A stretch of 64,000 bases of DNA from Actinopolyspora biskrensis. GTDB lineage: Bacteria > Actinomycetota > Actinomycetes > Mycobacteriales > Pseudonocardiaceae. Shown here piece by piece: positions 10,776 through 49,437 of this stretch. The stretch is from positions 868,001 to 932,000 of the forward strand of contig NZ_JACBYW010000001.1 in assembly GCF_013408175.1 (NCBI RefSeq). The letters run 5' to 3'. How positions within the stretch are numbered: position 1 is the stretch's first letter; each line of letters opens with the position of its first letter. The notes beneath the pieces are model-generated. The model was given only the letters and a program-made list of their open reading frames with translations. It was not told where the DNA came from and searched no databases. Made by a program: the position numbers and the translations under genes.

Positions 10776-10818
10776 CCTATACGGTGCGGTTGACATGTCG
10801 CTGACTCAGCGCTGACGC
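10776..10818 (-). promoter_or_regulatory. SARP-type promoter: three heptamers at 11-bp steps, 8 bp before a -10
   Basis: On the minus strand the heptamers are GCGTCAG (10818-10812), GAGTCAG (10807-10801) and ATGTCAA (10796-10790), each exactly 11 bp apart. After the last one come 8 bp and then TATAGG at 10781-10776, a good -10. Direct heptamers in 11-bp register ending 8 bp from the -10 are the known architecture of SARP-activated promoters. Transcription would run into the KAS III/FabL operon after a leader of about 240 nt. Confidence 0.65.
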
Positions 10819-10923
10819 GAGTAGTGCGGCCACGAGCGAAGCCGGTGCCGAAATGCCAGTGGTGAGGGGGCGCCTGCGTCGCCTGCTACTGCCCGCGTGG
10901 GGAAGTGAGCACGTAGGGGTCTC

Positions 10924-11612
10924 TTGTCGCCGGTCTCCCGTCCGAACCGGTCGCGCCCGAAGTCGCCGGGGCACAACGTCAACATCGCCGGTGGTCTGCC
11001 AGGGCTGACCACGGGTTACGGGCCCAGTCACCAGGCCACGGAGGACGTCGCGGTTCTGCGTGCGCTGCCCGGCCTGACCATCGTGGACCCGGGCGGCTCG
11101 GTCGACACCGAGCAGGCAGTTCCGGTCATGGCCGCCGACTCGGGGCCCACGTACTTGCGGCTGCTGCGCGGCAGGCTCCCCCCGGTGCTCGACGAGTACG
11201 ACTACCGGTTCGAGCTGGGCAAGGCCAAGCGGCTGCGCGACGGCGGGGACGCGGTGCTGGTCAGCAGCGGGTTGATGACGATGCGGGCCCTCGAGGCCGC
11301 CGAGGAGCTGAGCGAGCACAACGTGGACGTCGCGGTGGTGCACCGCTCGACGGTCAAACCGCTCGACGAGGCGACGCTGCTGCACGAGGCAGACTCCGAT
11401 CGGCTGCTGGTCACCCTGGAGAACCATTCGCTCGTGGGTGGTCTCGCCGAACCGGTGGCCAGCGCGCTGGTCAGGAACAACGCGGCCAGGGTCTGGTGCC
11501 GATCGGGCTGCCGGACGAGTTCCTCGAAGCCGGTGCGCTGCCGACGCCGCACGAGCACTACGGCTTGTCGACGGATCGGGTGGTTCGCCGTGTGCTCGAC
11601 GGGCTGGGCTAG
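10924..11612 (+). pseudogene. Transketolase C-terminal remnant (truncated and frameshifted)
   Basis: The frame from about 10924 encodes the transketolase pyrimidine-binding and C-terminal domains (HNVNIAGGL, GYGPSHQATEDVAVLRALPGLTIVDPG, YLRLLRGRLP, GDAVLVSSGLMTMRALEAAEEL, LENHSLVGGLAEPVASAL). The N-terminal thiamine-diphosphate domain is absent. Near 11490 the frame shifts by one base; the rest (VPIGLPDEFLEAGALPTPHEHYGLS) continues in another frame to TAG at 11610-11612. Upstream sequence shows no TPP motif. It is a dead fragment of a split or full transketolase gene. Confidence 0.75.
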
Positions 11613-11720
11613 ATCGAAAGGGCGACGTTCGTCCGCTCGACCCGTGGCCGTCCGCCCACGGGCGAGCCGTTCCGGTGGAGCCGGTCGTCGCGGCCCGCGT
11701 GGTGGATGTGCTGAGTGTGC

Positions 11721-13142
11721 TCAACCGACGATGGGACGCTCCTCGGGCAGGTCGTAGCGGCGGCCGCGTTCCCGCAGCGCGAGCGCGGAGGCCATGGTGA
11801 TGGGGCCGATCCTGCCGGTGAACATCAGTGCCACCAGCACCAGGTGCCCCACCGCGGGCAGCTCGCCGGTGATGCCGGTGGACAGTCCCACGGTGCCGAA
11901 CGCGGAGACGGACTCGAACAGCACGGCGTCCAACCCGAACCGGGTCAGCACCAGCAGTACCAGGGTCGCGGTGAACACCATGCCCACGGCCACCAGCACC
12001 ACGGTCAGCGCTTGACGGACGACCTCGGTGGGCAGTCTGCGTCCGGCGATGTGCACCTGGGGCTCGCCCCGGGCTTCGGCGAGGATGACGAAGGCCAGCA
12101 GCGCGAAGGTGGTCACCTTGATGCCGCCTGCTGTGCCGGCGCTGCCGCCGCCGATGAACATGAGCACGTCGGTGACCAGCAGCGTGGCCGGCTGCATCTC
12201 GCCCACGTCGAGGGTGTTGAACCCGGCGGTGCGCGGGGTGAGGCCGTGGAACAGGCCGGTCAGCAACCGCCCGTCGGTGTCCATCGCGCCCAGCGTGGCC
12301 GGATTGTTCCACTCCAGCCCGGTGATGGCCACGACCCCGACCAGTGCGATCAGGCCGTAGCCGGCCAGCGTGATGCGGGCGTGCAGCGACCAGCGGCGCT
12401 GCACGCGCCGCAGGTGCCGGGTGAGTTCGAACAGCACGGGGAACCCGAGCCCGCCGAGCACGAACGCGACCGCGATGGGCAGGCAGATCCACCCGTCGGT
12501 GGCGTAGCGCACCAGGCTGTCCGGGTACAACGCGAACCCGGCGTTGTTGAACGCCGAGACCGCGTGGAACACCCCCAGATACGTGCCGTGCGCCCACGAG
12601 TACCCGTAGGCGTTCACCAGCCGCAGGGACAGGATCGCGGCGGTGACGATCTCCATGATCAGGCTCAGCACGATCACGCCGACGACCACGCGACGCACCT
12701 CACCCAGAACCAGGCTCTTCGTCTCGGTCTGGGCGCTGCGCTGGGTCCGAAGCCGCATTCTGCGGGTGACCACCATCCCCAGCAGTGAGGCCAGGGTCAT
12801 GATCCCGAGGCCTCCGACCTGGATCAGCCCCAGTACCACCAGCTCGCCGAAGGTGGACCAGTACGCGGGCGTGTCCACCACGATCAACCCGGTCACGCAC
12901 ACCGCCGAGGTCGCGGTGAACAACGCCGTCACCCACGAGGTCAGCTGCCCGTTCGCGCTGGCGACCGGCAACATCAACAGCACCGTGCCGATCAGGATGG
13001 TCACGGCGAAACCGGCCACCACCACCCGCGCCGGATGCCGACTGTCCGGCAACATCCGCCGCGCACCCCGGACCAGTCCACCGACGACACCGGTCACCCA
13101 CCCCGGCATCCACGTCCCCACACGGTTCACGCCCCACGACAT
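11721..13142 (-). CDS. TrkH/KtrB-family K+ transporter, membrane subunit
   Basis: 473 residues with the four-repeat pore architecture of the Trk/Ktr superfamily. Pore-like segments include LTSWVTALFTATSAVCVTGL, GVFHAVSAFNNAGFALYPDS, GLTPRTAGFNTLDVG and SAFGTVGLSTGITGELP, each carrying the selectivity glycine of its loop. About 8-10 transmembrane helices are evident. The start is ATG 13142; a TTG lies just before it, and no strong ribosome site is seen for either. The NAD-binding TrkA/KtrA partner is not next to it. With the Mrp operon it fits ion homeostasis in a saline or alkaline habitat. Confidence 0.88.
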   Translation of the reverse strand: MSWGVNRVGTWMPGWVTGVVGGLVRGARRMLPDSRHPARVVVAGFAVTILIGTVLLMLPVASANGQLTSWVTALFTATSAVCVTGLIVVDTPAYWSTFGELVVLGLIQVGGLGIMTLASLLGMVVTRRMRLRTQRSAQTETKSLVLGEVRRVVVGVIVLSLIMEIVTAAILSLRLVNAYGYSWAHGTYLGVFHAVSAFNNAGFALYPDSLVRYATDGWICLPIAVAFVLGGLGFPVLFELTRHLRRVQRRWSLHARITLAGYGLIALVGVVAITGLEWNNPATLGAMDTDGRLLTGLFHGLTPRTAGFNTLDVGEMQPATLLVTDVLMFIGGGSAGTAGGIKVTTFALLAFVILAEARGEPQVHIAGRRLPTEVVRQALTVVLVAVGMVFTATLVLLVLTRFGLDAVLFESVSAFGTVGLSTGITGELPAVGHLVLVALMFTGRIGPITMASALALRERGRRYDLPEERPIVG

Positions 13143-13624
13143 CAACGGCGCAACCTACGCCCCGCGCATCTTCCGGTGCAGCCCCTGGTGATCACGCCCA
13201 CGTCTTGGCCGGAGGGGGGCGGTTCTCCCCGTTCCGCCGGGCCACGATTCCGGTGATCTCGGTGGTGAGGCCGATGCGGCACACGGGCGGCCCGCTGGTG
13301 CGGTCGGATCCGTGTGCCGGGGCGTCTCGGGGCGGGCGTGTGCTCGGGGGAGCATCGCCGTCCGGCGAGTGGGCGAGGTGATCCGCGAAGCCGCCTGCGA
13401 TGGGCGCCGACGTGTTCGCCGGACGACCGACCGGACCGTGCACGCCTGTCAACGCTTCCCGAAGCCGGGGCACTCGCAGCGAGAGTCCGCGGGGGATTCC
13501 GCTCAGTAACCACCCGGTGCAGGCGAGGACGGGAGACACCGGTGAGGTGCCGTGGTGATTCGCGCCGCGGATCTCGGGGTAGCCCCGCAGCGGGGAGACG
13601 AAACCGAAGCAGTCAGGAGTGATG
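13143..13624. other. Intergenic region without recognised gene
   Basis: Open frames here have no protein-like composition. It holds the upstream regions of the divergent TrkH (minus) and AhpD-like (plus) genes, with AGGAG at 13615-13619 before the latter. No clear operator was found. Confidence 0.4.
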
Positions 13625-14173
13625 ATGTCGCGGATTCCCGTGTACTCGGTCGACAACGCGCCGCAGGAAGCGCGTGACCAGCTGGAGGCCCTGCGCGCGC
13701 AGTTCGGCAAGGTCCTCAACATCCACGGAGAGATGGCCCACTCGCCCGTGGTCCTGGCCGCCTACAGCGGGATCCAGGACGCGATCGCCCGGCACGGCAC
13801 CTTCGATCAGGCGACGCAGGAAGCGATCGCGCTGGCCGTCGGCAACACCAACGACTGCGACTACTGCCAGTCCGCGCACACCCAGGGGGCGCTCGCCGCG
13901 GGCTGGTCCGAGCAGGACACCGCGGCTATCCGCGCCGGGGGCATCGACGCGAATCCGAAGCTGACCGTCCTGTTGGACGTGGCCCGCGCCATCGCGCGTG
14001 ACGGGGGAGAGGTCGACGAACGAACGTGGTCCCGTGCCCGCGAGGCCGGGTGGAGCGATGTCGAGCTGACCGAGCTGTTCACGCACGTGATCGTCAACGT
14101 CTTCACGAACTACTTCAACCACTTCGCCCACACCGATCTGGACCTGCCGGCCGCCTCCGGCCTGGGTGGGTGA
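13625..14173 (+). CDS. Carboxymuconolactone decarboxylase / AhpD-like protein
   Basis: 182 residues of the AhpD/CMD superfamily (peroxidase-related proteins). The redox motif is NTNDCDYCQSAHTQGA, that is C-x2-C followed by His, as in AhpD-type thiol peroxidase partners. The C-terminal half repeats the helical fold and ends LFTHVIVNVFTNYFNHFAHTDLDLP, typical of the uncharacterised-peroxidase subfamily. Of the adjacent starts (GTG 13619, ATG 13622, ATG 13625), the last has normal spacing from AGGAG at 13615. It is a cytoplasmic, probably trimeric or hexameric antioxidant, and a single gene ending at a terminator hairpin. Confidence 0.82.
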   Translation: MSRIPVYSVDNAPQEARDQLEALRAQFGKVLNIHGEMAHSPVVLAAYSGIQDAIARHGTFDQATQEAIALAVGNTNDCDYCQSAHTQGALAAGWSEQDTAAIRAGGIDANPKLTVLLDVARAIARDGGEVDERTWSRAREAGWSDVELTELFTHVIVNVFTNYFNHFAHTDLDLPAASGLGG

Positions 14174-14213
14174 GCGTTTCGGTTCGGCGGGAAGGACGTG
14201 GTTCGAACGGGGC

Positions 14214-14248
14214 GGGGTGCTCCCGTCTTCCGACGGCGGGAGCACCCC
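14214..14248. terminator. Bidirectional terminator hairpin
   Basis: A perfect 12-bp stem (GGGGTGCTCCCG with CGGGAGCACCCC) surrounds an 11-nt loop between two convergent genes (ending 14173 plus and 14296 minus). There is no U-tract, as is common in actinobacterial terminators. Confidence 0.8.
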
Positions 14249-14295
14249 CGTTCACGAGCAGGCGGAAAGTTCCGACGACGCGGTGAGGGTGGACA

Positions 14296-15543
14296 TCATC
14301 GACTGGTGCTCTCCTCGGACGGGGGTGTGAACGTGCTCTCGGGGGTCCGGGGCGGGATTCGTCCGGTCGTCGTTGAGCGCGCCGGTGCTGTGTCGACACC
14401 GTGCTCACGACGCCGGTGGACGGCCTTGGCGACGGCGCGGGCTTCCAGCCCAGCGTAGCGCAGATGCCCGCTCGGGTGGTTGGTGAAGCCGATGAAGTAC
14501 AGGTCCGGCGCTTGGGGGCTGGTCCGGGACCCGCGCACGGTGGGCAGCCCGCGTGGGCTGAGCAGGGGCGCGGGCCCCAGCAGTTTCTCGAGGTCGGTGG
14601 CGTAGCCGGTGGCGGCGATGATGCTGTCGGGGCGGATCCTGCTCCGGTCTGTCAGGTGGACCTGCGGGCCGTCGATCGCGGCGACGGTGGTCACCGGCCG
14701 CACCCTGTCCCGCCGGATCTCGTCGACGAGGCCGCGGTCGTGCACCGGGTTGAGCTCGTCGCGCCGGGCCCGGGTGTAGAGCCCTTCGTCGGGGCGGGGA
14801 AGCCCGCGGGAGGTCAGGTCCGGCAGGCAGACGCGTTCGAACGTGGTGGTGAGGAAGTCCGCCGCCGGTGTGGGGAGTTTGTCCACGAGGATTCCCATCC
14901 GCTGCCAGCGGTCGGCCGCGGGCGGAATGATGTTCGGTGGTGTTCGGACGGACCACCAGACGCGGTGCGCGCCGTTGCGGGCCAGGGCGACCGCGATCTC
15001 GGCTCCGCTGTTGCCCGCTCCCACGACGAGGACCGAGTGGCCTTCGTAGGGAGCGGGGTTCTGGTATCGGGCCGAGTGCACCAGGGAGCCGGGGAACGTC
15101 TCCGCGCCCGGCCAGTCGGGCAGGTGCGGGGTGCGGTTGAGTCCGGTGGCGATGACGACCGCGGAGGCGGCCAGGGGCCCCTCGGGGGTGCCCAGCTGCC
15201 AGCCGGAGCCGTTGCGGCGGACGTGCTCGACCGGGGTGTTCAATCGGATGTCGAGTGCGTTGCGGTGCGCGTACTCCTCCAGGTAGCGGACCATGTCGTC
15301 GCGCGCGACCCAGCGCCCGTAGGAGCGGGGGATCGGCATGCCGGGCAGGTTGGACAGTTCGCGCGTGGTGTGCAGCCGTAAGTGGTCGTACTGGTACCGC
15401 CAGCCGGCCGCGAGGTGCGCGGAACTCTCGAGGATCGTGGCGCGCACTCCCCGCCGTCCGAGTTCGGCCGCTGCCGCCAGGCCGCTGGGACCTGCGCCGA
15501 TGATCGCTACGGGGAGCACGGTGTCCGTGCGGTCCTGGTTCAA
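14296..15543 (-). CDS. FAD-dependent NAD(P)H monooxygenase (flavin-containing monooxygenase type)
   Basis: About 415 residues. The FAD dinucleotide site VAIIGAGPSGLAAAAELGRRG is close to the N-terminus and the NADPH site VLVVGAGNSGAEIA lies mid-protein, with ATGYATDLEKLL near the C-terminus, the arrangement of flavin-containing and Baeyer-Villiger-like monooxygenases (the strict BVMO fingerprint is not evident). I chose the TTG at 15543, which has GGAG 6 bp upstream and starts 15 residues before the FAD motif; an upstream in-frame start would add an Arg/Pro-rich stretch without family likeness. Soluble; substrate unknown. It converges with the AhpD-like gene. Confidence 0.8.
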   Translation of the reverse strand: MNQDRTDTVLPVAIIGAGPSGLAAAAELGRRGVRATILESSAHLAAGWRYQYDHLRLHTTRELSNLPGMPIPRSYGRWVARDDMVRYLEEYAHRNALDIRLNTPVEHVRRNGSGWQLGTPEGPLAASAVVIATGLNRTPHLPDWPGAETFPGSLVHSARYQNPAPYEGHSVLVVGAGNSGAEIAVALARNGAHRVWWSVRTPPNIIPPAADRWQRMGILVDKLPTPAADFLTTTFERVCLPDLTSRGLPRPDEGLYTRARRDELNPVHDRGLVDEIRRDRVRPVTTVAAIDGPQVHLTDRSRIRPDSIIAATGYATDLEKLLGPAPLLSPRGLPTVRGSRTSPQAPDLYFIGFTNHPSGHLRYAGLEARAVAKAVHRRREHGVDTAPARSTTTGRIPPRTPESTFTPPSEESTSR

Positions 15544-15724
15544 CCTTGACTCCGGAAGTTGGGGAACGGGGCGTGGTGACCCGCGCGGCGTTTCCGACGC
15601 CGCGCTCGGTGCTCCCGGCGCGCGCTGACACCGCCGTCGTCGAGCGCGACGGCGGGTTCGCGGGCGTATTCCGCGGAACGAGCCCGGCGGGAATACCGCG
15701 AGCGCCGGTTCGCTGGGCCGCATG

Positions 15725-16033
15725 TCACCAGGTGCAGTCAGCGCCGTCTGGCCGGAGGTGCTTGCGGATCACGCCCATCGGCGGTGAACCACCCCTGCTG
15801 CGTCTCGTGCGTTCCTCGCACACGGGGCACCGCACGGTCACGGAGTCTCCCCGCTTCGGTTTGTCGGTGGCCCCGCGTTTGGCCGGTATTCCACTGTTGG
15901 CGCAGAACGGCTGCTCCCACGTGGTCCGAAGCAGCGAAAACGTCCAACGCTTGTGGAAGAGGTTGCCGTGGTGTCGAGGGATCTTGCCGGATTTGGTCGG
16001 TTCGAACTTCAGATCGCAGCCACCGCAGAACAC
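15725..16033 (-). CDS. Small zinc-ribbon hypothetical protein
   Basis: 102 residues starting with GTG behind GGAAAGG (7-bp spacing). Two CxxC-like pairs, FCGGC near the N-terminus and RCPVCEE near residue 68, suggest a zinc ribbon; further C and H residues are scattered (HHGNLFHKRW, DCTW). The protein is basic. It could be a nucleic-acid-binding protein, but no family is recognised. It is a single gene on the minus strand, and the coding call rests on the ribosome site and the paired cysteines. Confidence 0.5.
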   Translation of the reverse strand: MFCGGCDLKFEPTKSGKIPRHHGNLFHKRWTFSLLRTTWEQPFCANSGIPAKRGATDKPKRGDSVTVRCPVCEERTRRSRGGSPPMGVIRKHLRPDGADCTW

Positions 16034-16516
16034 GTGGGCACCTTTCCGTCCGGTCGTGTGCGTCGGGCGCCGTGGCCGATGACGGTGATGTCGAACCCTC
16101 AGGAGAGCACGCGGGTTACCGCGCCGGGTACCGCCGAAAGGGGATCATGGCAACGTCGGTCGTGTTCACCGCGTGATCCGCCGGTTCGCGGGACCGCGGT
16201 GACCGGCGTTCGTGCCCGCGGACCCCGCGGTTGGTGGCGTGCCTCCTGTCGTGCGGCTCCACGGCTGGGGCACCGGACGACCACCGGACACACGAGCCCG
16301 GATTTCGGTGTGCACCTGATCGAACTCCGGATGGCGGACCCGGCCGTGGTGCCGCGGGGGATCGTCGTGGACACGGGTGGGAGAGGTACAGTTGTCTCGG
16401 CCCGCCGGAGAGCACGCGGCGGGACTGAGGCCTGTCGCGAAAGTGCGTGCGGAGGCGGTGTGCGGTAGCACTCCGGGGGAGTCCGAAGACACGCCGTTGC
16501 TCGCTTGGAGTCGTCG
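16034..16516. other. Intergenic region without recognised gene
   Basis: Several overlapping frames are open here but none resembles a known protein or has a good start. The only support is a GGAG site at about 16507 serving the VOC gene. Confidence 0.35.
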
Positions 16517-16864
16517 ATGACCGTTCGCCGCGTCATGCCCATTCTCCGGTCGGACACAGCGCAGGGGAACCGGGAGTTCTACGGCCTGCTGGGCTTCGAG
16601 GAGGTCATGGACCTCGGCTGGATCGTCACACTTGCCTCGCCGTCCACTCCTGCGGCCCAGATCAGCTTCATGACCAGCGACAAGACCGCGCCGATCACGC
16701 CGGACATGAGCGTGGAGGTGGATGACGTGGACGCGACCTACGCGATCGTGCGGGACAGCGGCGCGGAGATCGTGCACCCCCTGCAGGACGAGGAGTGGGG
16801 TGTGCGGCGGTTCTTCGTCCGTGATCCCAACGGCCGAGTGATCAACGTGGTGAGCCACCGCTGA
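16517..16864 (+). CDS. Glyoxalase/VOC-superfamily protein
   Basis: 115 residues, one complete VOC module (two beta-alpha-beta-beta-beta units). It opens MTVRRVMPILRSD and has REFYGLLGFEEVMDLGWIVTLASP, VEVDDVDATYAIVRDSGAEIVHPLQDEEWGVRRFFVRDPNGRVINVVSH, the common form in glyoxalase-like and bleomycin-resistance-like proteins. The C-terminal FVRDPNG and preceding acidic residues are typical metal or ligand positions. GGAG 6 bp before the ATG supports the start. Cytoplasmic; activity cannot be assigned. Confidence 0.82.
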   Translation: MTVRRVMPILRSDTAQGNREFYGLLGFEEVMDLGWIVTLASPSTPAAQISFMTSDKTAPITPDMSVEVDDVDATYAIVRDSGAEIVHPLQDEEWGVRRFFVRDPNGRVINVVSHR

Positions 16865-23697: not shown

Positions 23698-25122
23698 CTA
23701 GACCAGGTGCATGACGTGTTTGATCCGGGTGTATTCGTCGAGTCCGTAGAGGGAGAGGTCCTTGCCGAAACCGGATTGCTTGAATCCGCCGTGGGGCATT
23801 TCGGCGGGCAGCGGGAGGTGGGTGTTGACCCACACGCAGCCGTAGTCCAATTCGCTGGAGGCGCGCATCGCGGTGCGGTGGACCCGGGTGTGTACGGATG
23901 CGGCCAAGCCGTAGTCCGCCGCGTTGGCCGTGGAGATCACGTCTTGGTCGGCGGAGAACCGTTCGACCGTGACCACCGGGCCGAACAGCTCGTCCCGCAC
24001 GATCGCGTCCTCGTTGGTGACATTGGTGACGATCGTGGGCGGGTGGAAGAAACCGGGACGGTTGAGCGGTTTTCCACCTGTGGTTACCTCGGCGTGGTCG
24101 GGGAGCGCGTCGAGTGCTCGGCCGATCCGATCGATCTGGTTCTGGTTGTTCAGCGGACCGTAGAACGCTGCCACGTCGTCGTCAGGACCGGTGGTGACCA
24201 GGGATGTGGCCTGGTTGGTCAGTTCCGCGATGAAGTCGTCGTGCGCGGTGGAATCGACGAGGATCCGCGTGGCCGCCGTGCAGTCCTGACCGCCGTTGAA
24301 GTACGCGGCGTGTGCGATGTGCCTCGCGGCGCGCGGAACGTCGGCGTCGCCGAAGACGATAGCGGGGGATTTCCCGCCCAGTCCCAGATGCAACCGCTTG
24401 ACACTGGTCAGTGCCGAGGTGGCGATCGCGAGCCCCGAGTCGGTGGCGGCCGTTGCGGAGACGTGCTGAGCCGTCCGGTGGCGGGTGATGTCCGCGGTGG
24501 CGTGTCGATCACCGCAGACCACGTTGACCGTCCCCGGAGGCAGGAGATCGGCGGTGAGGTCGGCGAAAGCCAGCACGCTCAGCGGTGTGTTGCGGGACGG
24601 TTTGAGTACGACAGTGTTACCCGCCGCGAGGGCGGGCGCGAGTTTCCACACCGCCATGAGAAGCGGGTAGTTGAACGGCACCATGTGCGCGCACACGCCG
24701 ATCGGTTCGCGGCGGACGTACGAGGTGTGGTCAGCCATGTACTCACCGGCCGCCGGGGCCAGTGCCGACCGGATCGCGCCCGCGAAGAAGCGGAACACGT
24801 CGACGGCGACCCCGATCTCCTCCACTCGTGTGGTTTCCCGTGGCTTGCCCGTGTTGGCGGACTCGATCCCGGCGAGCCGGCCAGCGTTGCCCTCAACTCT
24901 GTCGGCCACGGCGAGCAGTACGCGCTGACGTTCCCACGGGCTGTACGCCGCCCAAGTCGGAAACGCCGCTGCCGCCGCGGCAAAAGCGCCGTCGATGTCG
25001 GCGCTCCCGGAACGAGCGGCCTCGGCGAACTGGTCACCGGTACACGGATCGATCAACGGGGAGTACGAATCCGTCGCGGTCGGGGACCATCGCCCGTTGA
25101 TGAAGTTCGGGTGGCGATCCAT
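23698..25122 (-). CDS. Aldehyde dehydrogenase family protein lacking the general-base Glu
   Basis: 474 residues of the ALDH superfamily, most like aminobutyraldehyde/betaine-aldehyde dehydrogenases. Present: FNYPLLMAVWKLAPALAAGNTVVLKPS, catalytic Cys281 in FNGGQDCTAATRI, and DELFGPVVTVERF. Abnormal: the usual LELGGKSP reads LGLGGKSP, so the general-base glutamate is Gly247, and the SFTGS cofactor motif reads SATAAT. The fold should form, but NAD-dependent oxidation may be weak or altered. The ATG at 25122 has GAGGAG 8 bp upstream. It is the third gene of the GAD/CoA-transferase operon (11-bp gap). Confidence 0.8.
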   Translation of the reverse strand: MDRHPNFINGRWSPTATDSYSPLIDPCTGDQFAEAARSGSADIDGAFAAAAAAFPTWAAYSPWERQRVLLAVADRVEGNAGRLAGIESANTGKPRETTRVEEIGVAVDVFRFFAGAIRSALAPAAGEYMADHTSYVRREPIGVCAHMVPFNYPLLMAVWKLAPALAAGNTVVLKPSRNTPLSVLAFADLTADLLPPGTVNVVCGDRHATADITRHRTAQHVSATAATDSGLAIATSALTSVKRLHLGLGGKSPAIVFGDADVPRAARHIAHAAYFNGGQDCTAATRILVDSTAHDDFIAELTNQATSLVTTGPDDDVAAFYGPLNNQNQIDRIGRALDALPDHAEVTTGGKPLNRPGFFHPPTIVTNVTNEDAIVRDELFGPVVTVERFSADQDVISTANAADYGLAASVHTRVHRTAMRASSELDYGCVWVNTHLPLPAEMPHGGFKQSGFGKDLSLYGLDEYTRIKHVMHLV

Positions 25123-25133
25123 CGCGCTGCTCC

Positions 25134-25847
25134 TCAAATAACGATGCGGCCGGTTCCGTCGTGGTGCAGGTGCGTCAGCTTCCATGCGTGGTCCCGGGCC
25201 GGTTCGGTGACCGGTTCGCCGCGGTAAATGACCCGGACACCGTCACCGTGGCTGCCGTAGGTACCCGGCGGGTCCCACGCCGGTTGGCCGTCGGAGCGAG
25301 CTGCGGGGACCACGAGCTCCCCTTCGACGAGCTTGGCCAGGCAGGACGCCTGGCGGAGGACGTGGTGGCCGCTGGTGGCCTGATGTGACAGCACTACGGC
25401 CTTGTAGGCCAGCCACAGCCCCCCGGAGGTATCACCGAGGTAATATGGCTGGTACGAGCCGTGCTCCAGCACCGCCCGCGCTTGGGCGACGGCGTCGAAC
25501 GACCGCTCGTCGAACTCGTCCCGCATGGACACCCAAGGCACCCGCAACCGGGCGGCCTCCGTCGCGGGGTCGAGACCCCACCTCTGCCAGGCCGAGCTGC
25601 GGAAGTTGTCGATGACCATGTCGACGTCCCCGGGTGACAGATCGATGACTTCACGGGCGTGCGCGGGACGCAGGTTCTTGTCGTGGTTGATCCAGGACCA
25701 CAATTCGTCGCCGCGGTGCAGTCCTTGGATGGGATCCGGGTGTCCGGCCGGATTGGTCCACTTGGTGACCTCGTAGCCCTGCTCGGCCAAGATCATTCCG
25801 GCGTAGGCGGGCAGGACGTAGGAGCCCAGTTCGAGTACTCGGGTCAT
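25134..25847 (-). CDS. Short class III (CaiB/BaiF-type) CoA-transferase-like protein
   Basis: 237 residues with the N-terminal Rossmann-like part of class III CoA-transferases: MTRVLELGSYVLPAYAGMILAEQGYEVTKW and ELWSWINHDKNLRPAHAREV. SFDAVAQARAVL aligns with the GYDxLAQAxSGL segment that carries the catalytic Asp (here about D118), and YYLGDTSGGLWLAYKAV with the following helix. Family members are usually 380-430 residues, so the C-terminal portion is missing or replaced by a short tail ending near the stop at 25134. The start overlaps the stop of the decarboxylase gene (ATGA) and has GGGAG. It may be a specialised acyl-CoA transferase or a truncated one. Confidence 0.72.
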   Translation of the reverse strand: MTRVLELGSYVLPAYAGMILAEQGYEVTKWTNPAGHPDPIQGLHRGDELWSWINHDKNLRPAHAREVIDLSPGDVDMVIDNFRSSAWQRWGLDPATEAARLRVPWVSMRDEFDERSFDAVAQARAVLEHGSYQPYYLGDTSGGLWLAYKAVVLSHQATSGHHVLRQASCLAKLVEGELVVPAARSDGQPAWDPPGTYGSHGDGVRVIYRGEPVTEPARDHAWKLTHLHHDGTGRIVI

Positions 25848-27103
25848 GACTCTCCCTTCGCGGCGAACGTGTGCGACGCACGTGCGATGTCCGTGGTGAG
25901 CTCGTCGACGAGATCCGAGGACATGTCGGAACGAACGACGATGCGCCCAGTGGTCGGGTGCGTCGGGGTCCGCGACTGGTACACCGGGATGTGCCACCCC
26001 TTGTCAGCCAGTGACGTCGTGAGGTCGGTAACCGCCGCACTGGCCGGTGAACCTGCCGTGAATGTGACGACCGGCAGGTCACTCCCGCCGCTGAGCACTT
26101 CGATGTCCGGTTGCTCCGCGAGCTGCCTTGCCACGCGTTCGGCGATGTCCCGGGAACGCAGGTGCGTGGCACGATAACCGGAGCGGCCTCGGCGGATCAG
26201 CTGCAGGTACTGCTCCACGACCGGCGCCGATGGGCGGGAGAACGACAACGTCGGCTCCGGTGCTCCCGTTCCGATGTAGGGCGCCGCAAGTGCCAGTTCG
26301 TCCATAGTGGACCAACTGGTGCGCCACAGCAGCCACCCCACGCTCGGTCGGGTCAGGCCGTACTTGTGCCCGGATGCGTTGATCGACACGACGCGATCGA
26401 GCCGGAAATCCCATGGGAATTCCGGCTGGAGGAACGGAGCCACGAACCCACCGGAAGCGGCATCGACGTGCAGCGGAATATCCAGTCCCGTGCGCGCGTG
26501 CAGCTCGTCGAGCGCCGTGCTGACCTCGTGGACCGGGTCGTACAGACCGAACTCGGGAGAACCGAGGGTAGCCACCGCGCCGATCGTTCCGGCATCGCAG
26601 CTGCTTGCCACGGCGGCGGGATCACTGATGGGCTCACCCTGCCGTGGCGGAAGAAGGCGCGGCTCGACGTTCCAGAACATGCAGAAGCGCAGCCAGCACG
26701 TGTGCGCGGTGGGGCCGAGCACGAGGTTCGGCTGCTGATCGTGGTTCTGCTTGCGCCATCGGCGAAGCAGCTCGGCCGCGGCGATGACGGCGGCCTCGCT
26801 GGATCCCGTCGTGGCGCACCCGCCGGTGTCAGCGGACCCGTGCCACAAGTGCCGCAGCATGGCCAGGCACCGGTGTTCGAGGATCGTCACGCCGGGATAT
26901 TCGGCGCGGTTGATCAGGTTGTGCCTCGACCAGCGCCGGACCAGTGTGTCGATGTGCGGGTCGCACTCGGGGGACACGAACGTACCGAGGTTCCGGGACG
27001 GTGGGATGTCGCTGCGAGTGACGTCCCTGATCACCTCCTCGGCGGTTTCCTGAGAGCATGGTGCTTCCAGGAAATCGACGTCCACGGGGCCTGTGCCGGG
27101 CAT
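25844..27103 (-). CDS. PLP-dependent glutamate-decarboxylase-like enzyme
   Basis: 419 residues, group II PLP decarboxylase of the GadB type. Features are ATTGSSEAAVIAAAELLRRWR (PLP phosphate loop), LHVDAASGGFVAPF with the pyridine-binding Asp214, and SINASGHKYGLTRPSVGW with the Schiff-base Lys247. GadB is normally about 460 residues; here both the N-terminal and the C-terminal pH-sensing parts are short. It probably decarboxylates glutamate or a related acidic amino acid, releasing GABA or an analogue. First gene of an operon with a CoA-transferase and an ALDH; a SARP-type promoter lies about 100-155 bp upstream. Confidence 0.82.
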   Translation of the reverse strand: MPGTGPVDVDFLEAPCSQETAEEVIRDVTRSDIPPSRNLGTFVSPECDPHIDTLVRRWSRHNLINRAEYPGVTILEHRCLAMLRHLWHGSADTGGCATTGSSEAAVIAAAELLRRWRKQNHDQQPNLVLGPTAHTCWLRFCMFWNVEPRLLPPRQGEPISDPAAVASSCDAGTIGAVATLGSPEFGLYDPVHEVSTALDELHARTGLDIPLHVDAASGGFVAPFLQPEFPWDFRLDRVVSINASGHKYGLTRPSVGWLLWRTSWSTMDELALAAPYIGTGAPEPTLSFSRPSAPVVEQYLQLIRRGRSGYRATHLRSRDIAERVARQLAEQPDIEVLSGGSDLPVVTFTAGSPASAAVTDLTTSLADKGWHIPVYQSRTPTHPTTGRIVVRSDMSSDLVDELTTDIARASHTFAAKGES

Positions 27104-27883: not shown

Positions 27884-28670
27884 ATGACTCGTTTTGGCGT
27901 TCTCGGCCCGATCCGGATCGATTCGTGCGACTCCGGCGCCGAAGTGAGGGGGTCCGGCGTCGAACCTTGCTGGCGATGCTGTTGGTCAATGCGGGAAGGG
28001 TGCTCCCCTTCCACGAGCTCTACGCGGAGATCTGGCCGGACGGGCTGCCTGCCGATCCGGCCAACGCGCTGCAAGTCCACCTGGTGCGATTGCGTCGACA
28101 GCTGGAGTCCGGTGAGCCTGGCCGTGAGCTGCGGATCACCACCGCCGGACCTGGCCTGTCGCTGTCCCTGGAGCCTGGCGAACTGGACCTCGAGGTGTTC
28201 TCCACCTGCTGGCAGCAGGCCCGGCACCTCGTTCGGAGCGAGCCGCGGACGGCCGCGGAGAAGCTCCGCGAAGCGCGCGCATTGGAATGGGCCCGCGCTG
28301 GTCGACGTGCGCGACCACAGCCTGCGGCTCAGGGTCCGTGGCCGAGCAGGCCGAAGAGGACCGTCTCGCGGTGATCGAGCAGCTCGTCGACCTCGACATC
28401 ACGCTTGGCCGTCACGACCGGATCATCGGTGAGCTCAGGGCACTCACCGCCGAATTCCCGCTGCGTGAACGTCTCTGCACTCAACTGATCACTGCTCTCG
28501 GCAGGTCGGGGCGGCGCGCCGAAGCGGTTCGTGTCTTCCGCTCCTCCTGGGAGCACGTGGTCTCCGAGGCCGGTATCGAGCCGTCCCGCGATCTCGACGA
28601 CGCGTTCCACGGCGCGCTCGCCGACGATCCGCGAGTGATTCCTCAGTGGCCTCCGTACAGTAGTGAGTAG
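27884..28670 (+). pseudogene. SARP-family regulator gene broken by frameshifts
   Basis: The ATG at 27884 starts MTRFGVLGPIRIDS, the standard SARP beginning. The wHTH and bacterial transcriptional activation domain then continue in other frames: TLLAMLLVNAGRVLPFHELYAEIWPDG and ALQVHLVRLRRQLE in a second frame, a short GPALVDVRDHSLRL piece back in the first, and LGRHDRIIGELRALTAEFPLRERLCTQLITALGRSGRRAEAVRVF to SEAGIEPSRDL in a third. Shifts fall near 27948 (a run of G), 28290 and 28335. Three shifts in 790 bp favour a true pseudogene over sequencing error. The whole SARP length is otherwise represented. Confidence 0.8.
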
Positions 28671-41110: not shown

Positions 41111-41269
41111 CGGGCTCACGTGCCCCGGAGGGCGGCGCCACGGCGGTGCCGAGCGGTGATCAGCTGTTCCCGTCCGGTCACGACGGGGCCGTGGGCCGGC
41201 GCCGCCATCTCGGACAGCGGGGGCGAGGAAGCCGGGGACTTCGTGGGGCGGCCGATGTTGACAATTTAA

Positions 41270-41290
41270 TGGAAACGAATATCGTTTTCA
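41270..41290. promoter_or_regulatory. Fur/Zur-like dyad overlapping the methyltransferase start region
   Basis: TGGAAACGA and TCGTTTTCA are 9-bp arms (8 of 9 inverted matches) around ATA. Such TGxAAA/TTTTCA dyads are typical of Fur-family metal repressors such as Zur. A consensus -35 TTGACA lies at 41258-41263, and the dyad covers the expected -10, directly before ATG 41293. No metal-transport gene is adjacent, so the regulator assignment is tentative. Confidence 0.45.
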
Positions 41291-41292
41291 AT

Positions 41293-42042: not shown

Positions 42043-42226
42043 GCGCGGCGGGCACGGCTTCCGGTGCCGTGGTTCCTCGTTCCCGCTTTCCCGGTGACCC
42101 ACGGGCGCGGTGGTTCTCCCGGCCACCCGCCCGGGAAGGACGTGCTCCCGGAGGACGAGCGGATTCGAACCGTTCCCCGCGCCCGTCTCGGCCGCGGACC
42201 GTCCGCGTCACCCGGTTCCGGCGCGG

Positions 42227-44845
<2,619 letters not shown>

Positions 44846-45099
44846 GTGCGCGGCCGGCATCAGGCTGACCACCTGCGTGGTGCTCACCTGCCGCTCGCCA
44901 TGTTGCACGCGGGGGCACTGGAGGTGGCGCAGGGGATCGAGCAGCAGCACGCCGTGAAGGCCGGTGAGCTGCGGTCGAGCATCACCGCGGTCACTGATCA
45001 GCTGCGCGGGAGCACCAGCGTGCTGTCTGCTTCCGGGGCGGGCAGCTGGCCGACAAGGACGTGATCGAGCACTGAACTCATGCTTCGAGGAGGGGCGCT
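44846..45099. other. Short region with probable gene remnant
   Basis: A plus-strand frame reads LEVAQGIEQQHAVKAGELRSSITAVTDQLRGSTSVLSAS, a helical, coiled-coil-like piece, and then shifts frame to RQLADKDVIEH before a TGA. It resembles a broken small gene but is not identifiable. Confidence 0.3.
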
Positions 45100-45537
45100 G
45101 TGGAAGACGGGTATTTCTGTTCGGAGTGTGCAAATCCAGGAAGTACAGCACGGACATCACCCGCTGATGAATCTTTCTCGCTTCTGAGGGGAGTGTTCGA
45201 GGAAGCCTCCCTGGGGCCCGGGGTTGCCAACGAAGACGACGATGACCTGACAGTGAGATTTTTTCTGTGCGACATTCGGAGGGTAGGGCGTGATACGGCA
45301 GAGGTGGTGCTTTATTTTCACAAGACCCCGGAAATCCTCGCCCCCTTCTTGTCTCGGGCGCAACAGCCTCTGGCCGTCCTCTACTCGCTGACTCGTCCTT
45401 ATGGGAAGGCGCACAACCTGGAAATGCCGAGCCTGGAGATACACGAGTTCGTTTCCACGGGAGGAGTGAACGCCGAAACGGTATTGGGCGAAGACGATGA
45501 GGGAAATTTGGTGGTGGATTCCCGGGGAGAGCTCTAG
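45100..45537 (+). CDS. Acidic hypothetical protein (orphan)
   Basis: 145 residues starting with GTG behind GAGGAGGGG. Strongly acidic (ANEDDDDLTVRFFLC, GEDDEGNL). The block AEVVLYFHKTPEILAPFLSRAQQPLAVLYSLTRPYG with following EIHEFVSTGGVNAETVLGEDDEGN suggests an alpha/beta fold. Composition is lower in GC than the neighbours, and it lies between a broken ORF and an IS5 remnant, so horizontal gain is likely. It could be an immunity-type or small enzyme-like protein. No family is recognised. Confidence 0.5.
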   Translation: MEDGYFCSECANPGSTARTSPADESFSLLRGVFEEASLGPGVANEDDDDLTVRFFLCDIRRVGRDTAEVVLYFHKTPEILAPFLSRAQQPLAVLYSLTRPYGKAHNLEMPSLEIHEFVSTGGVNAETVLGEDDEGNLVVDSRGEL

Positions 45538-45576
45538 AAGGGCCTGGCGCATTGGTGATCCCGAGACGGAAGCTTC

Positions 45577-45670
45577 TTGGTGCTGGTTGCGCCGTGGGTT
45601 ATCTCGGACGAGTTGTGCGGAGCGGATCGAGCCGCTGGCCGAGCGGAAGCGCGGGGTGCTGTCACTGGTC
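45577..45670 (+). pseudogene. IS5-family transposase N-terminal fragment
   Basis: LVAPWVISDEL followed in another frame by ERIEPLAERKRG matches the start of IS5-family (IS4-like) transposases, which read VAPWVISDELWxxIEPLLP. About 30 residues and one frame change remain; the DDE domain is gone. Confidence 0.65.
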
Positions 45671-45822
45671 GGGGAGGGGTTGTCGGACGCGAACACCGCG
45701 CCACCTGCCCGCCTCCGCGACAGGTCCCCCGGCTCGGCGGACGGGAGCGGTGTCCCGTCCGCTCGCCGCGAGGGGGCTGCGTGTTCGGTGCCCCGCTGGG
45801 CCTGCTCGGCCGGTGGCGCCCG

Positions 45823-46995
45823 TCAGCCCCAGCCGGCCTGCGCACCGCCGACGCGCTGCTCGGCCAGGTACTGCTGGTGGCCGGACTCGGCGTAGGCGCG
45901 CATCGGTTCGGCGGGCAGCCCGCGCGAGGCGCGCCACTGCGCCAGGGCCGGTCGGACGTCGGTCTGGAAGGCGTCCATCAGCACCTCGTTCGCCCCGAGC
46001 ACGTCGTGCTCGGCCTGCGCCTTCTCGAGGGCCGCCCGGTCGATCAGCAGCGCGCGTGCGGTCATCTCCTGCACGTTGAGCACCGAGCGGATCTGGCCGG
46101 GGATCTTCTCCTCGATGTTGTGGCACTGGTCGAGCATGAAGCGCACCGGGGAGTCCGCGTCGAGCCCACCGTTCGCGATGACCTCGTGCAGGATGCGGAA
46201 CAGCTGGAACGGGTCGGCCGCGCCGACGATCAGGTCGTCGTCGGCGTAGAAGCGCGAGTTGAAGTCGAACGAGCCGAGCTTGCCCAGCCGCATCAGCTGC
46301 ATGACGATGAACTCGATGTTGGTGCCCGGCGCGTGGTGGCCGGTGTCCAGACAGGTCAGCGCCCGGTCGCCGAGTGCGCTGACCTGCGCGTACGAGGTCC
46401 CCCAGTCGGGGACGTCGGTGTGGTAGAAGGCAGGTTCGAAGAACTTGTACTCCAGCACGAGCCGCTGGTGCGCGTCGAGCCGTTCGTAGATCTCGGCCAG
46501 TGATTCGGCGAGCCGGTCCTGGCGCGCCCGCAGGGAGTCCTGGCCGGGGTAGTTCGTCCCGTCGGCCAGCCAGATCTTGAGGTCGGTCGATCCGGTGGCG
46601 TGCATGATGTCGATGCACCGGAAGTGGTGGTCGATGGCCTTGCGCCGGATCGCGGGGGCGGAGTGGGTGAGGCTGCCGAACTTGTAGTCCTCGTCCTGGA
46701 ACGTGTTGGCGTTGATCGTGCCCAGCTCGACTCCGAGACCTTCGGCGTGGGCCTTGAGCTCGGCGAAGTCCCCGACGTCGTCCCACGGGATGTGCAGCGC
46801 CACGGTCGGCGCGAGCCCGGTCATCTCGTGCACCTTGGCGGCGTCGGCGATCTTCTCGTGCGTGGTGCGCGGGGTGCCGGGGGTGCCGAACACCTTGAAG
46901 CGGGTGCCGGAGTTGCCGAGCGCCCAGCTGGGCAGCTCGATGGACTGGCGGGCGAGCGTGTCGGTGATCTCGTCGAAGCGAGGCGGCACGGTCAT
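45823..46995 (-). CDS. rhaI: L-rhamnose isomerase
   Basis: 390 residues, close in length to the RhaI-type xylose-isomerase-like rhamnose isomerases. Signatures are SWALGNSGTRFKVFG, VALHIPWDDVGDF, GTINANTFQDEDYKFGSLTH, KIWLADGTNYPGQDS, LEYKFFEPAFYHTDVPDWG (metal-binding Glu and Asp), LDTGHHAPGTNIE and FDFNSRFYADDDL. It interconverts L-rhamnose and L-rhamnulose in the cytoplasm using a divalent metal. AAGGAG precedes ATG 46995. It overlaps rhaM by 4 bp (ATGA). Confidence 0.9.
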   Translation of the reverse strand: MTVPPRFDEITDTLARQSIELPSWALGNSGTRFKVFGTPGTPRTTHEKIADAAKVHEMTGLAPTVALHIPWDDVGDFAELKAHAEGLGVELGTINANTFQDEDYKFGSLTHSAPAIRRKAIDHHFRCIDIMHATGSTDLKIWLADGTNYPGQDSLRARQDRLAESLAEIYERLDAHQRLVLEYKFFEPAFYHTDVPDWGTSYAQVSALGDRALTCLDTGHHAPGTNIEFIVMQLMRLGKLGSFDFNSRFYADDDLIVGAADPFQLFRILHEVIANGGLDADSPVRFMLDQCHNIEEKIPGQIRSVLNVQEMTARALLIDRAALEKAQAEHDVLGANEVLMDAFQTDVRPALAQWRASRGLPAEPMRAYAESGHQQYLAEQRVGGAQAGWG

Positions 46996-47396
46996 CGTTC
47001 TCCTTCGTTCGGATCGGAGTCGTCGAGCGGCGGTGTGGTGCCGGCGTGCGGATGGTGCTGATCGAGCTCGGCGAGCTGGTCCTCGAGGTGGAAGACCTCT
47101 TCGAGGGTGATCGCGGCCTGGTCGGCGCGTCCGCTCCGGCCGACGAAGAGGTCGGCCATGTACTCCTCCCAGATCGCGGCCACCCGCGATTGCGCGAGGT
47201 GGGCGTCCGAAGCGGTCGCGGAGTCCGTCTCGTAGTAGCCGATCAGCAGCCCGTCCGGGCGCAGGAACAGCGAGTAGTTGCGCCGCCCCGAGGCCTCGAG
47301 TTCGCGCAGCATCTCGGGCCACACGGCCGCGTGGCGGTGCCGGTACTCGTCGAGGCGGTCCGGATCGATCCGCAGCTGGAAGCACACGCGGGTCAT
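46992..47396 (-). CDS. rhaM: L-rhamnose mutarotase
   Basis: 134 residues of the RhaM (DUF718) family. CFQLRIDPDRLDEYRHRHAAVWPEMLRELEASGRRNYSLFLRPDGLLIGYYE is the diagnostic N-terminal block, with catalytic His in HRHAAVWP and the conserved Tyr. It converts alpha- and beta-L-rhamnopyranose. The C-terminal 30 residues (DQHHPHAGTTPPLDD) are an extra polar tail. Overlaps rhaI and the transporter gene by 4 bp. Confidence 0.9.
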   Translation of the reverse strand: MTRVCFQLRIDPDRLDEYRHRHAAVWPEMLRELEASGRRNYSLFLRPDGLLIGYYETDSATASDAHLAQSRVAAIWEEYMADLFVGRSGRADQAAITLEEVFHLEDQLAELDQHHPHAGTTPPLDDSDPNEGER

Positions 47397-48700
47397 GGGG
47401 TCATCACCGGGTCCTCGGCGGTCGGGGTGGTGCTTCCGTAGCGCTCCCGCTCGATCTGCTTCAGGTCCTTGCCCCGAGTGCGGGGTGTCCACAGTGTTCC
47501 GATGAGCAGGGAGGCGGCCAGCAGCCCGAGGATGAGCAGGCCGAGTCCTTTCAGCCCGATCCGTTCCAGCAGCATCGGGAACCAGACGCTGAGCACGCCG
47601 ACGAGCACGCGGGCGGCCAGGAACAGCACGCCCTGCGCGCTGGCGCGGTAGCGCGTCGCGAACAGCTCGCTGGTCCACAGGCCGTAGAACGCCTGCGCAC
47701 CGACGCCCATGGACACGCCCCAGCCGATCGCGAAGAACAGCAGGGTGACCACTCCCGGCGGGGCGTAGATCAGCGCGCTCCAGGCGAGGATGCCGAGCAG
47801 GGCGCCGGAGCAGTACAGCCACCGGCGGCTCATCCTGTCGGCGAGCCGCATGAACCCGAAGTAGGTCGCCGCGCTGGTGCAGCCCCACATGAGCACCTGC
47901 AGCAGGTACTGCTCGGTCACGGACGTGAAGCCCGCCGCGTCGTACACGCGCGGCTGGAAGATCCCGGACTGCCCGGCCACGGTGTTCCACAGGGCGTAGA
48001 CGCCGAACAGGAACAGCAGCGCGGTGAGGTTGGCTTTCCTGGTGAAAAGCCCGCCCAGGCTGCCCAGGAAGGAGGGGCGCTCGTCCGGGGCGTTGTTCCG
48101 GTCGCGCCAGAGCCCGGATTCCGGCAGGCCGCGCCGCACCCACCAGGTGATGGCGGCGACGACGAACAGGTGCGCGAAGATCAGTCGGCTGCCGAGCAGG
48201 CCGAGCGGGGCCACGACGACGGCCAGGAAGTAACCGATCATCGGCCCGATCGACCAGGCCAGCTGGGCGGTGCCCACGTGCGCTGCTCGCTGGTGCGCCG
48301 GTGCCTCCTCGGCGATGTAGGTCCACGAGGCGGTCACCCCGGCGCCGACGGCGATGCCGGTCAGCACGAAGGCGGTCAGCAGCATCCCGTAGGACGTGGC
48401 GAAAACGGCCAACAGCACGCCGAGCATGTACAGCAGCAGGTCGTAGGTGTAGATGAACTTCCTGCCGAACCGGTCGCACAGCGGACCGCCGACGGCCGCT
48501 CCCGCCGCGGCGCCGAACGCGTTGGCGCTCAGTGAGGCGAGGAGTCCGACCGCCAGGTTGTCCAGGTCGAACCGTTCCTGCCACAGGCCGAGGCTGGTGG
48601 CGATAGCGATGATCGACCCGGCCTCGATGTAGTTCGACATGGCCACGGCGATCGTCGCGCGCCACCCCGTCGTGCGCTTGCTACTGGAACGGACCCCCAT
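47393..48700 (-). CDS. MFS sugar transporter, probable rhamnose permease
   Basis: 435 residues with 12 helices, sugar-porter-like MFS. Loop 2-3 motif GGPLCDRFGRKFIYTYD, central GLPESGLWRD, and GFMRLADRMSRRWLYCSGALLG in the second half are MFS signatures. ATG 48700 has GGAGG 4 bp upstream and is preferred over the ATG at 48712. In an operon with rhaM and rhaI (4-bp overlap), so rhamnose is the expected substrate. A perfect dyad lies 63 bp upstream of the start. Confidence 0.82.
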   Translation of the reverse strand: MGVRSSSKRTTGWRATIAVAMSNYIEAGSIIAIATSLGLWQERFDLDNLAVGLLASLSANAFGAAAGAAVGGPLCDRFGRKFIYTYDLLLYMLGVLLAVFATSYGMLLTAFVLTGIAVGAGVTASWTYIAEEAPAHQRAAHVGTAQLAWSIGPMIGYFLAVVVAPLGLLGSRLIFAHLFVVAAITWWVRRGLPESGLWRDRNNAPDERPSFLGSLGGLFTRKANLTALLFLFGVYALWNTVAGQSGIFQPRVYDAAGFTSVTEQYLLQVLMWGCTSAATYFGFMRLADRMSRRWLYCSGALLGILAWSALIYAPPGVVTLLFFAIGWGVSMGVGAQAFYGLWTSELFATRYRASAQGVLFLAARVLVGVLSVWFPMLLERIGLKGLGLLILGLLAASLLIGTLWTPRTRGKDLKQIERERYGSTTPTAEDPVMTP

Positions 48701-48762
48701 TGGCCCTCCCATCCGTCGACCCTGGTGTCTCGTGCTCCGTTCCCGGAGCCGTAGAGGTAAAT

Positions 48763-48779
48763 CGTTTCAAAGTGAAACG
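48763..48779. promoter_or_regulatory. Operator of the rhamnose operon
   Basis: CGTTTCA and TGAAACG are perfect 7-bp inverted repeats around AAG, 63 bp before the MFS gene start. LacI- and DeoR-type rhamnose regulators in actinomycetes use TGAAACG/CGTTTCA-like halves. No regulator gene is adjacent. Confidence 0.6.
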
Positions 48780-49383
48780 CACCATAGCGGCCTTCGCGGT
48801 TGTGAACAAGACCGTGCGCGAGATTCGTGCGGGCGGGTCGGCTCGCGGCCGTGCGTTGGCGAAGCGCGCTCGGGGAGGTTCTCGGTCACGGTCGGGAGCG
48901 CCCGCGGCGCGGACCCGGAGGGTGGCTTCCGTGGCGGGGCCCAGCCGGGGCGTGCCGAGGGGTGCGGCACTGCCGCGGTTTTCCGCTACGGAGGAGAGTT
49001 CCTTGTGTCCAGTCGGTTTTCGGGTGCGGCTTTCGAGCTTCCCGCTGTGGTGCAGGCTGTACCGCTCCTTCGTCCCGTCGGGTAGCGATTGCCGACCGGT
49101 GTGGGGGCGCGTCCGTGCGGGCTCACTTGGCTCGCGCCGAGTTGCGAGCTCGCGCGCGTGCCGAGTCGACCGGGAGGACTCTCCGGGGGTGCTGCGAGCC
49201 AAAGCATAAAACGTTTTATTTCAGTGGGGGTTGATCGAGTGCTCCCGCCCGGTGGGCGGAAAGTCGCACCGGACCTCGCGGTCGTGTTCTCCCGTGGTGC
49301 GGGTCTCGACGGATTCGTGGCGGAGCGCGGCCCCGCTGTCATGCACTTCGGCCTGCGTAGCCCGGAGCCGTCCGGGGCGACGA
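48780..49383. other. Intergenic region without recognised gene
   Basis: Open frames here lack family resemblance or good starts. It includes a perfect LacI-type palindrome at 49206-49219 (annotated separately) with no obvious target gene beside it. Confidence 0.35.
49206..49219. promoter_or_regulatory. Perfect LacI-type palindrome (orphan)
   Basis: ATAAAACGTTTTAT shares the exact core TAAAACGTTTTA with the site at 483-496 in the polysaccharide locus. The nearest genes are the divergent rhamnose operon, 506 bp away, and the KAS III operon, 556 bp downstream. It may control the rhamnose genes from a distance or be what remains of a lost sugar gene. Confidence 0.5.
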
Positions 49384-49437
49384 CCGTCAGCGGGGTGTCA
49401 GGGCTGTGTCAGCGCTGTGTCAGATCAGACGGCTAAA
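49384..49437 (+). promoter_or_regulatory. SARP-type promoter: four heptamers at 11-bp steps
   Basis: CCGTCAG at 49384, then GTGTCAG at 49395, 49406 and 49417: three identical heptamers and one variant in exact 11-bp register. After 8-10 bp comes CTAAAC/TAAACC as a modest -10. Same consensus and spacing as the promoters at 10776-10818 and 27205-27258. The leader to the KAS III start at 49775 would be about 330 nt. Confidence 0.65.

Follow-up and report, generated by a model that had tools for sequence, protein, structure and literature searches.

The stretch of DNA analyzed (the window; 64,000 nucleotides, C1:868001-932000) belongs to the genome of Actinopolyspora biskrensis (4.95 Mb in 15 contigs; label G000). 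Three operons in the window, which encode acyl-handling and amine- or aldehyde-converting enzymes, are each preceded by an array of short direct repeats, and these arrays, predicted to be promoters of the Streptomyces antibiotic regulatory protein (SARP) type, are the subject of this analysis. On the minus strand, site 1 has three units (GCGTCAG at 10818-10812, GAGTCAG at 10807-10801, and ATGTCAA at 10796-10790), and so does site 2 (ACGTCAC at 27258-27252, ACGTCAG at 27247-27241, and GTGTCAG at 27236-27230). Site 3, on the plus strand, has four units within 49384..49423, CCGTCAG followed by three copies of GTGTCAG, starting at 49384, 49395, 49406, and 49417. The units have the form NNGTCAG, follow one another in exact 11-bp steps, and are oriented like the operon downstream; GTCAG is kept in eight of the ten, the exceptions being GTCAC (site 2) and GTCAA (site 1). 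From the start of the last GTCAG to the next called gene start, the distance is 268 bp at site 1, 149 bp at site 2, and 356 bp at site 3. An earlier interpretation made from the letters alone (the sequence-only reading) had listed heptamers at these positions, in 11-bp register and strand-matched to the operons; every one was found in place, and the arrays at the three promoters are confirmed.

A putative -10 hexamer lies in the same register at each site: TAGGTT at 10779-10774 (minus strand, site 1), TAGTTT at 27219-27214 (minus strand, site 2), and TAAACC at 49434-49439 (plus strand, site 3). For site 1, TATAGG (10776-10781) had been proposed as the -10 box, exactly 8 bp past the last unit; that distance is correct, but the in-register hexamer is TAGGTT, which overlaps TATAGG and starts two bases further on. 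For the count of -10 positions, arrays were chosen by their GTCAG units alone and aligned on the last unit. The loci examined held 49 arrays, from which 11 two-unit arrays, 5 near-duplicates, and 8 that were intragenic or had no gene start within 450 bp were removed; among the remaining 25 are the three window sites and some arrays from different genomes that are related to one another, and not all of the 25 are independent. In 13 of the 25 arrays, the last GTCAG was followed by TA at an offset of 10 nt, while at 44 other offsets TA occurred 13 times altogether and in no more than 2 of 25 at any one of them. The next position was A in 20 of 25. This offset equals 8 bp after a heptamer of the PapR2 type, GTCAGSS, and the -10 is TANNNT-like. 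In SARP promoters, as described in PMC10936776, the repeats are 11 bp apart and the 3' repeat is 8 bp from the -10; the PapR2 motif GTCAGSS is reported for the red promoters as well (PMC7040171). At sites 1 to 3, three, three, and four direct repeats follow the 11-bp period (a SARP-dependent promoter calls for at least two, 11 or 22 bp apart), and counted as above the -10 begins 8 bp past the last of them. The two G/C bases after GTCAG are not present in every unit, and the last unit of site 3 has AT. The prediction from sequence that the three arrays are SARP-type promoters sharing an activator is well supported, and this part of the sequence-only reading stands.

Conservation was assessed in ten Actinopolyspora-group genomes (G000-G009), which are kin within one genus and hence not independent. 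The site-3 array precedes the same operon in five of them (G000, G002, G004, G006, and G007). When these five upstream regions were aligned, 26 of 107 columns were invariant; 18 of these lay upstream of the -10, and 16 of the 18 fell within three units.

Scores came from a matrix trained on 25 arrays from outside the window; it drew on 75 units and the -10 hexamers, and near-duplicates were kept. This training set holds relatives of site 3 (L136, L141, L142, and L143) and none of sites 1 and 2. Sites 1, 2, and 3 scored 33.0, 33.5, and 39.4, respectively, against a maximum of 17.9 over 60 windows simulated from the dinucleotides of the window. As the sequence-only reading had held, the three arrays stand out within the window, the sole other match above 8 being a second register of site 3. 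With the units alone, four window matches exceeded 18 at the 11-bp period, and none did at periods of 8, 9, 10, 12, 13, or 14 bp. Across the genome, triples with at most one mismatch gave 12 matches (10 separate arrays), compared with 1 for the reversed pattern, and of 22 matches to GTCAG-N(1-18)-TGTCAG, 12 (at nine places) had the 11-bp spacing and 10 were spread over the 17 other spacings. Looser patterns were not enriched: 9 pairs with one mismatch were observed in the window against 6.9 expected, and triples with up to three mismatches numbered 123 against 110 in the control.

The operon behind site 1 (minus strand) encodes a KAS III-like protein (9555..10526; identified by Pfam and NCBIfam, with the Cys-His-Asn triad present in the alignment) and a short-chain dehydrogenase/reductase (SDR; 8695..9522) whose nearest model is FabL, under its cut-off (239.1 of 328 bits). 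Behind site 2, also on the minus strand, lie genes for a glutamate-decarboxylase-like protein (25844..27085; 354.6 of 380.4 bits, with the pyridoxal-phosphate (PLP) lysine in SGHK), a short CoA-transferase-like protein (25134..25847; 237 aa, matching only positions 5-109 of a 366-position Pfam model), and an aldehyde dehydrogenase (23698..25122) nearest to aminobutyraldehyde dehydrogenase (586.6 of 615 bits). Either the decarboxylase or the aldehyde dehydrogenase could yield gamma-aminobutyric acid (GABA). The site-3 operon (plus strand) comprises a second KAS III-like protein with the Cys-His-Asn triad (49775..50815), an SDR (50812..51624) and an acyl-CoA-oxidase-like protein (52409..54256), both recognized by profile matches, and between these two an AfsA-type hotdog protein with one AfsA domain (51657..52412). 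The site-3 set would fit a dedicated acyl module with condensation, ketoreduction, a hotdog step, and acyl oxidation. It was also considered as a gamma-butyrolactone synthase operon, and this was dropped: the hotdog protein scored 37.3 bits against the ScbA/BarX equivalog (cut-off 200), over model positions 147-286 only, and does not qualify as an A-factor synthase.

Relatives of the hotdog protein (at least 61% identity) occur in five of the ten genus genomes, A. biskrensis included; a sixth match has 26%. Identity to the proteins of A. righensis and A. alba is 89%, and in the stretches of these two genomes that were examined the counterpart of window positions 1-4.6 kb adjoins the site-3 operon, the part with sites 1 and 2 being missing there. 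As approximately 4.6-49.4 kb of the window is missing at that place, it was either inserted here or deleted there. When the ten genomes were searched, the other nine yielded neither the site-1 KAS III as a close copy (best 36% identity) nor the site-2 decarboxylase, for which only a paralogue of 43-45% was seen (G000, G001, G005, and G006).

Outside the window, the matrix was run on 278 kb of the A. biskrensis genome around pattern matches, and scores above 20 were listed; four of the arrays so listed were in the training set. The array at C1:1096564 precedes genes for SIS, triosephosphate-isomerase-like, and ABC1-kinase proteins that lead into an enediyne-type cassette. This cassette (C1:1096564-1111397) includes UnbV-type and RnfD-like genes, a KS-AT-KR-DH synthase, a thioesterase, and an MFS transporter; the thioesterase matches 5vpj (6.3e-49), DynE7 (1.6e-45), and CalE7 (1e-42). 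The array at C1:1131568 lies before an IclR-type gene missed by the gene caller, whose product shares 53% identity with an IclR protein encoded behind an array in G006. At C1:1133963, an array precedes an operon for a 223-aa protein without a Pfam hit, an amine oxidase, a HisF-like protein, and an alcohol dehydrogenase, and this operon has an array in G006 (81%) and G002 as well. A weaker divergent pair, C1:1142510 and 1142626, stands before a PLP decarboxylase and a gene pair for an amine oxidase and an A-T-reductase (A-T-R) non-ribosomal peptide synthetase (NRPS); the NRPS also has an array in G002 and G006 (75-76%). The 223-aa-protein operon and the amine oxidase/NRPS pair face each other (L037:8132-16357), and similar array-bearing sets were seen in G002 and G006.

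The array at C1:1206544 precedes an incomplete Orn/Lys/Arg-type decarboxylase (C1:1206599-1207519). Decarboxylases with an array (61-63% identity) were also found in G002, G004, and G009, with just two units in the latter two, and the proteins in these three genomes are longer. The array at C6:66122 lies before an SDR that is likewise array-preceded in G002, G006, and G008 (63-67%), and that at C8:94238 before a methyltransferase and a class-V aminotransferase. In total, A. biskrensis has nine credible arrays with at most one mismatch, including the three window sites, and two weaker ones, the divergent pair. A tenth array with at most one mismatch, C3:584063, scored 15.2 and is doubted. Three further candidates were dropped or are doubted: C1:1058100 has two units and falls within a gene, C1:638674 is a pair only with no matrix hit at the locus, and C8:94043 has two units and lies beside the C8:94238 array. 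Amine and aldehyde chemistry recurs among the array-preceded genes, which is recorded as an observation and not as a pathway.

Three proteins with a BTAD domain were found in A. biskrensis: an AfsR-like protein on contig 4, a small SARP, and a broken SARP in the window; two of the three are intact. The small SARP (256 aa; C1:248914-249681) is encoded near aspS (aspartate--tRNA ligase by NCBIfam), approximately 0.63 Mb from site 1. It has Trans_reg_C (34.7 bits; cut-off 26.2) and BTAD (116.2 bits; cut-off 22.1) domains and no other Pfam hit, as is characteristic of small SARPs, and does not lie in a cluster that it would regulate. The broken gene (27884..28628, plus strand), once a full-length small SARP gene, does adjoin site 2. 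It lies in four pieces in frames 1, 3, 1, and 2 (three frame changes) and cannot give one protein unless the assembly is wrong; its recognition helix reads NALQVHLVRLRR.

Relatives of the aspS-linked SARP (51-70% identity) occupy the same place in G002, G004, G006, G007, G008, and G009 and are paired in four of these; the aspS neighbor was checked with the model in G000, G002, and G006 and by N-terminal sequence in the other genomes. The twelve SARPs of the small group share the recognition-helix signature NAL[QE]AHxxRLR, which is not that of the AfsR-like protein or of three further SARPs from the genus. Exact matches to GTCAG-N5-TGTCAG numbered 12, 9, 4, 12, 5, 4, and 2 in G000, G002, G004, G006, G007, G008, and G009, all of which have the small SARP (controls 1, 1, 1, 2, 3, 2, and 2), and 0 in each of G001, G003, and G005, which are without it (controls 0, 3, and 0). 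Triples with one mismatch, counted in G003 and G005, amounted to one and none, respectively. A second small SARP in G006 is part of a cluster, where two divergent arrays and a HisF-like gene are its neighbors.

A wider set of 150 family genomes was used for array counts and a SARP search. Since the search scored at most 17 candidates per genome, SARP absences in this set are not firm. In three genomes of another genus (G090, G117, and G168), the gene of a related SARP is preceded by a triple array with no more than one mismatch, 88-93 bp from the first matched residue and approximately 50 bp from the called start; in the fourth genome of that genus, G056, an array with a lower score occupies this position, and the SARPs of all four genomes have NALQAL in the helix. 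The related SARP of G081 (NALQAH), from another genus, has two arrays at a distance of approximately 3-6 kb. Within the genus of G090, G117, and G168, the surroundings of the array-preceded SARP also include TetR-type genes and an AfsA homologue. At one locus of another genus (L176:6018-12671), a SARP gene preceded by an array, a further SARP-like gene, an AfsA homologue, and TetR-type regulators are close neighbors, an arrangement that looks like a gamma-butyrolactone/SARP cascade.

We interpret the three arrays as SARP activator boxes within a dispersed regulon, with the aspS-linked SARP as the likeliest activator, and put the probability of this reading at about 0.7. By analogy with the AfsR structures, SARP subunits would bind side by side on the 11-bp repeats, roughly at the -35 place, and the bound protein would hold RNA polymerase on the weak -10, whose start lies 10 nt past the last GTCAG. 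The three window promoters would then form part of one regulon together with the other credible and weaker arrays, and, the window copy being broken, the intact 256-aa protein would be the one to read them. The arrays, their register, the -10 spacing, the conservation at site 3, and the further arrays before biosynthetic genes are direct observations; which SARP binds, the binding itself, and the co-expression of the operons are what we infer from them. In favor of this interpretation stand the matrix scores, the fixed -10 offset, the genome-wide excess of triples, the site-3 footprint, and the published layout of SARP promoters; the choice of activator is supported by the small number of intact BTAD proteins, the joint occurrence of the small-SARP group and exact matches across the ten genomes, the shared helix signature, and the arrays before related SARP genes in another genus. 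Several findings weigh against it. Of the 150 family genomes, 121 have at least one triple with no more than one mismatch, so a single array alone proves little, and the array counts in that set are too noisy for correlation; its sole use was the neighborhood of arrays and SARP genes. There is no TA at the -10 position in the enediyne, amine-oxidase/HisF, IclR, and NRPS arrays, and some exact matches in G000, G004, G007, G008, and G009 are intragenic or far from a gene start. The G009 genome has the small SARP, yet its two exact matches equal the control count, and no array was found upstream of the aspS-linked SARP's own gene in A. biskrensis.

If the arrays were chance matches in G+C-rich DNA, one would expect the lack of enrichment seen with loose patterns, the low score at C3:584063, and the intragenic two-unit match at C1:1058100. 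The strict patterns behave otherwise: scores from a matrix trained outside the window far exceed the simulation, the -10 offset is fixed, the period is 11 bp only, site 3 is conserved, and the genome-wide triples stand at 12 to 1, for which reasons a chance origin was rejected as having next to no probability. The boxes might instead be read by the AfsR-like protein or another regulator of TCA-type direct repeats. Such a protein is encoded in A. biskrensis, and AfsR too binds 11-bp direct repeats (PMC10936776), but the repeat reported for AfsR is CGTT(T/C)ATCGNN (PMC10972967), the recognition helix of the A. biskrensis protein is different (TIIHGYVSRLRK), and a BTAD protein of this kind, matched by domain and size (open frame of 966-1003 aa), is present in all ten genus genomes, including the three without exact arrays. 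We regard this alternative as very improbable.

The sequence-only reading had gone further and tied the three loci to one activator and a single undescribed pathway. The same type of box at three operons within 40 kb and the acyl enzymes in two of the three speak for one product, but G002, G004, G006, and G007 have the site-3 operon with its array, and the search of the ten genomes turned up in them neither the site-1 KAS III nor the site-2 decarboxylase as a close copy; the boxes also precede the enediyne-type cassette, an SDR, the A-T-R NRPS, and enzymes of amine and aldehyde conversion. The single pathway was accordingly given up as improbable, though slightly less so than a role for the AfsR-like protein, and a dispersed regulon, probably controlled by a chromosomally fixed small SARP, describes the data better. 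Somewhat less unlikely, though still poorly favored, is that the broken SARP was the former specific activator of sites 1 and 2 and was brought in together with them, that their promoters are now relics or run at a low level, and that the aspS-linked SARP serves site 3 only. In its favor, the broken gene adjoins site 2 and shares the recognition-helix signature, two relatives lack at this place the part that holds sites 1 and 2, and the CoA-transferase-like gene of site 2 is short. Against it, the boxes of sites 1 and 2 are kept as well as those elsewhere, the KAS III and decarboxylase frames are open with their catalytic residues present, and the genome encodes an intact SARP that has this helix signature as well.

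The kind of system is already known, including small SARPs, GTCAGSS boxes, and the 8-bp rule, and the arrangement is a variant. PapR2 and RedD of Streptomyces are similar in the motif (GTCAGSS, which not every unit here keeps in full), the heptamers with 4-bp spacers, and the small size of the SARP (PMC7040171), a likeness drawn from the published description; their genes sit in the clusters that they control, whereas the likeliest activator here is far from all targets found. AfsR shares the 11-bp repeats, the 8 bp to the -10, and the possession of several targets, and the aspS-linked SARP matches the AfsR structures 8hvr, 8k60, and 8jke (E down to 5.7e-24). However, AfsR is described as a large, global SARP with additional NOD and TPR domains and another repeat sequence, while the candidate is a small SARP with a different recognition helix. 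CcaR, ActII-ORF4, and CpkO/CpkN are reported as cases of one SARP affecting more than one gene cluster, ActII-ORF4 and CpkO/CpkN acting on other pathways (PMC6627628, PMC8062868); for CpkO, binding sites are reported not to have been known. The two clusters of CcaR are described as adjacent, in contrast to the similar boxes before operons at scattered loci in A. biskrensis. The open-licence PMC literature searched yielded no SARP regulon in Actinopolyspora and no case of a small SARP that is remote from its targets and has boxes of similar sequence spread over scattered loci.

Small SARPs are usually described as switches of their own cluster. Tentatively, and at somewhat less than even odds, the small SARP beside aspS may be a genus-wide master switch of Actinopolyspora specialized metabolism, with modules recruited by acquiring the same array: the enediyne-type cassette, the A-T-R NRPS/HisF-like pathway, the GABA-type module, and the KAS III/hotdog/acyl-CoA-oxidase operon. 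The boldest form, in which several scattered acyl and amine modules build one product, is improbable, if a shade less so than the pathway of three operons. The GTCAG box with its fixed -10 also serves as a marker for operons outside obvious clusters, the KAS III/hotdog/acyl-CoA-oxidase operon being an example, and through the NALQ signature of the recognition helix it can be tested how SARP sequence relates to box sequence. If the dispersed regulon is true, a fixed small SARP would provide one handle to wake many silent pathways of Actinopolyspora, the enediyne-type cassette among them.

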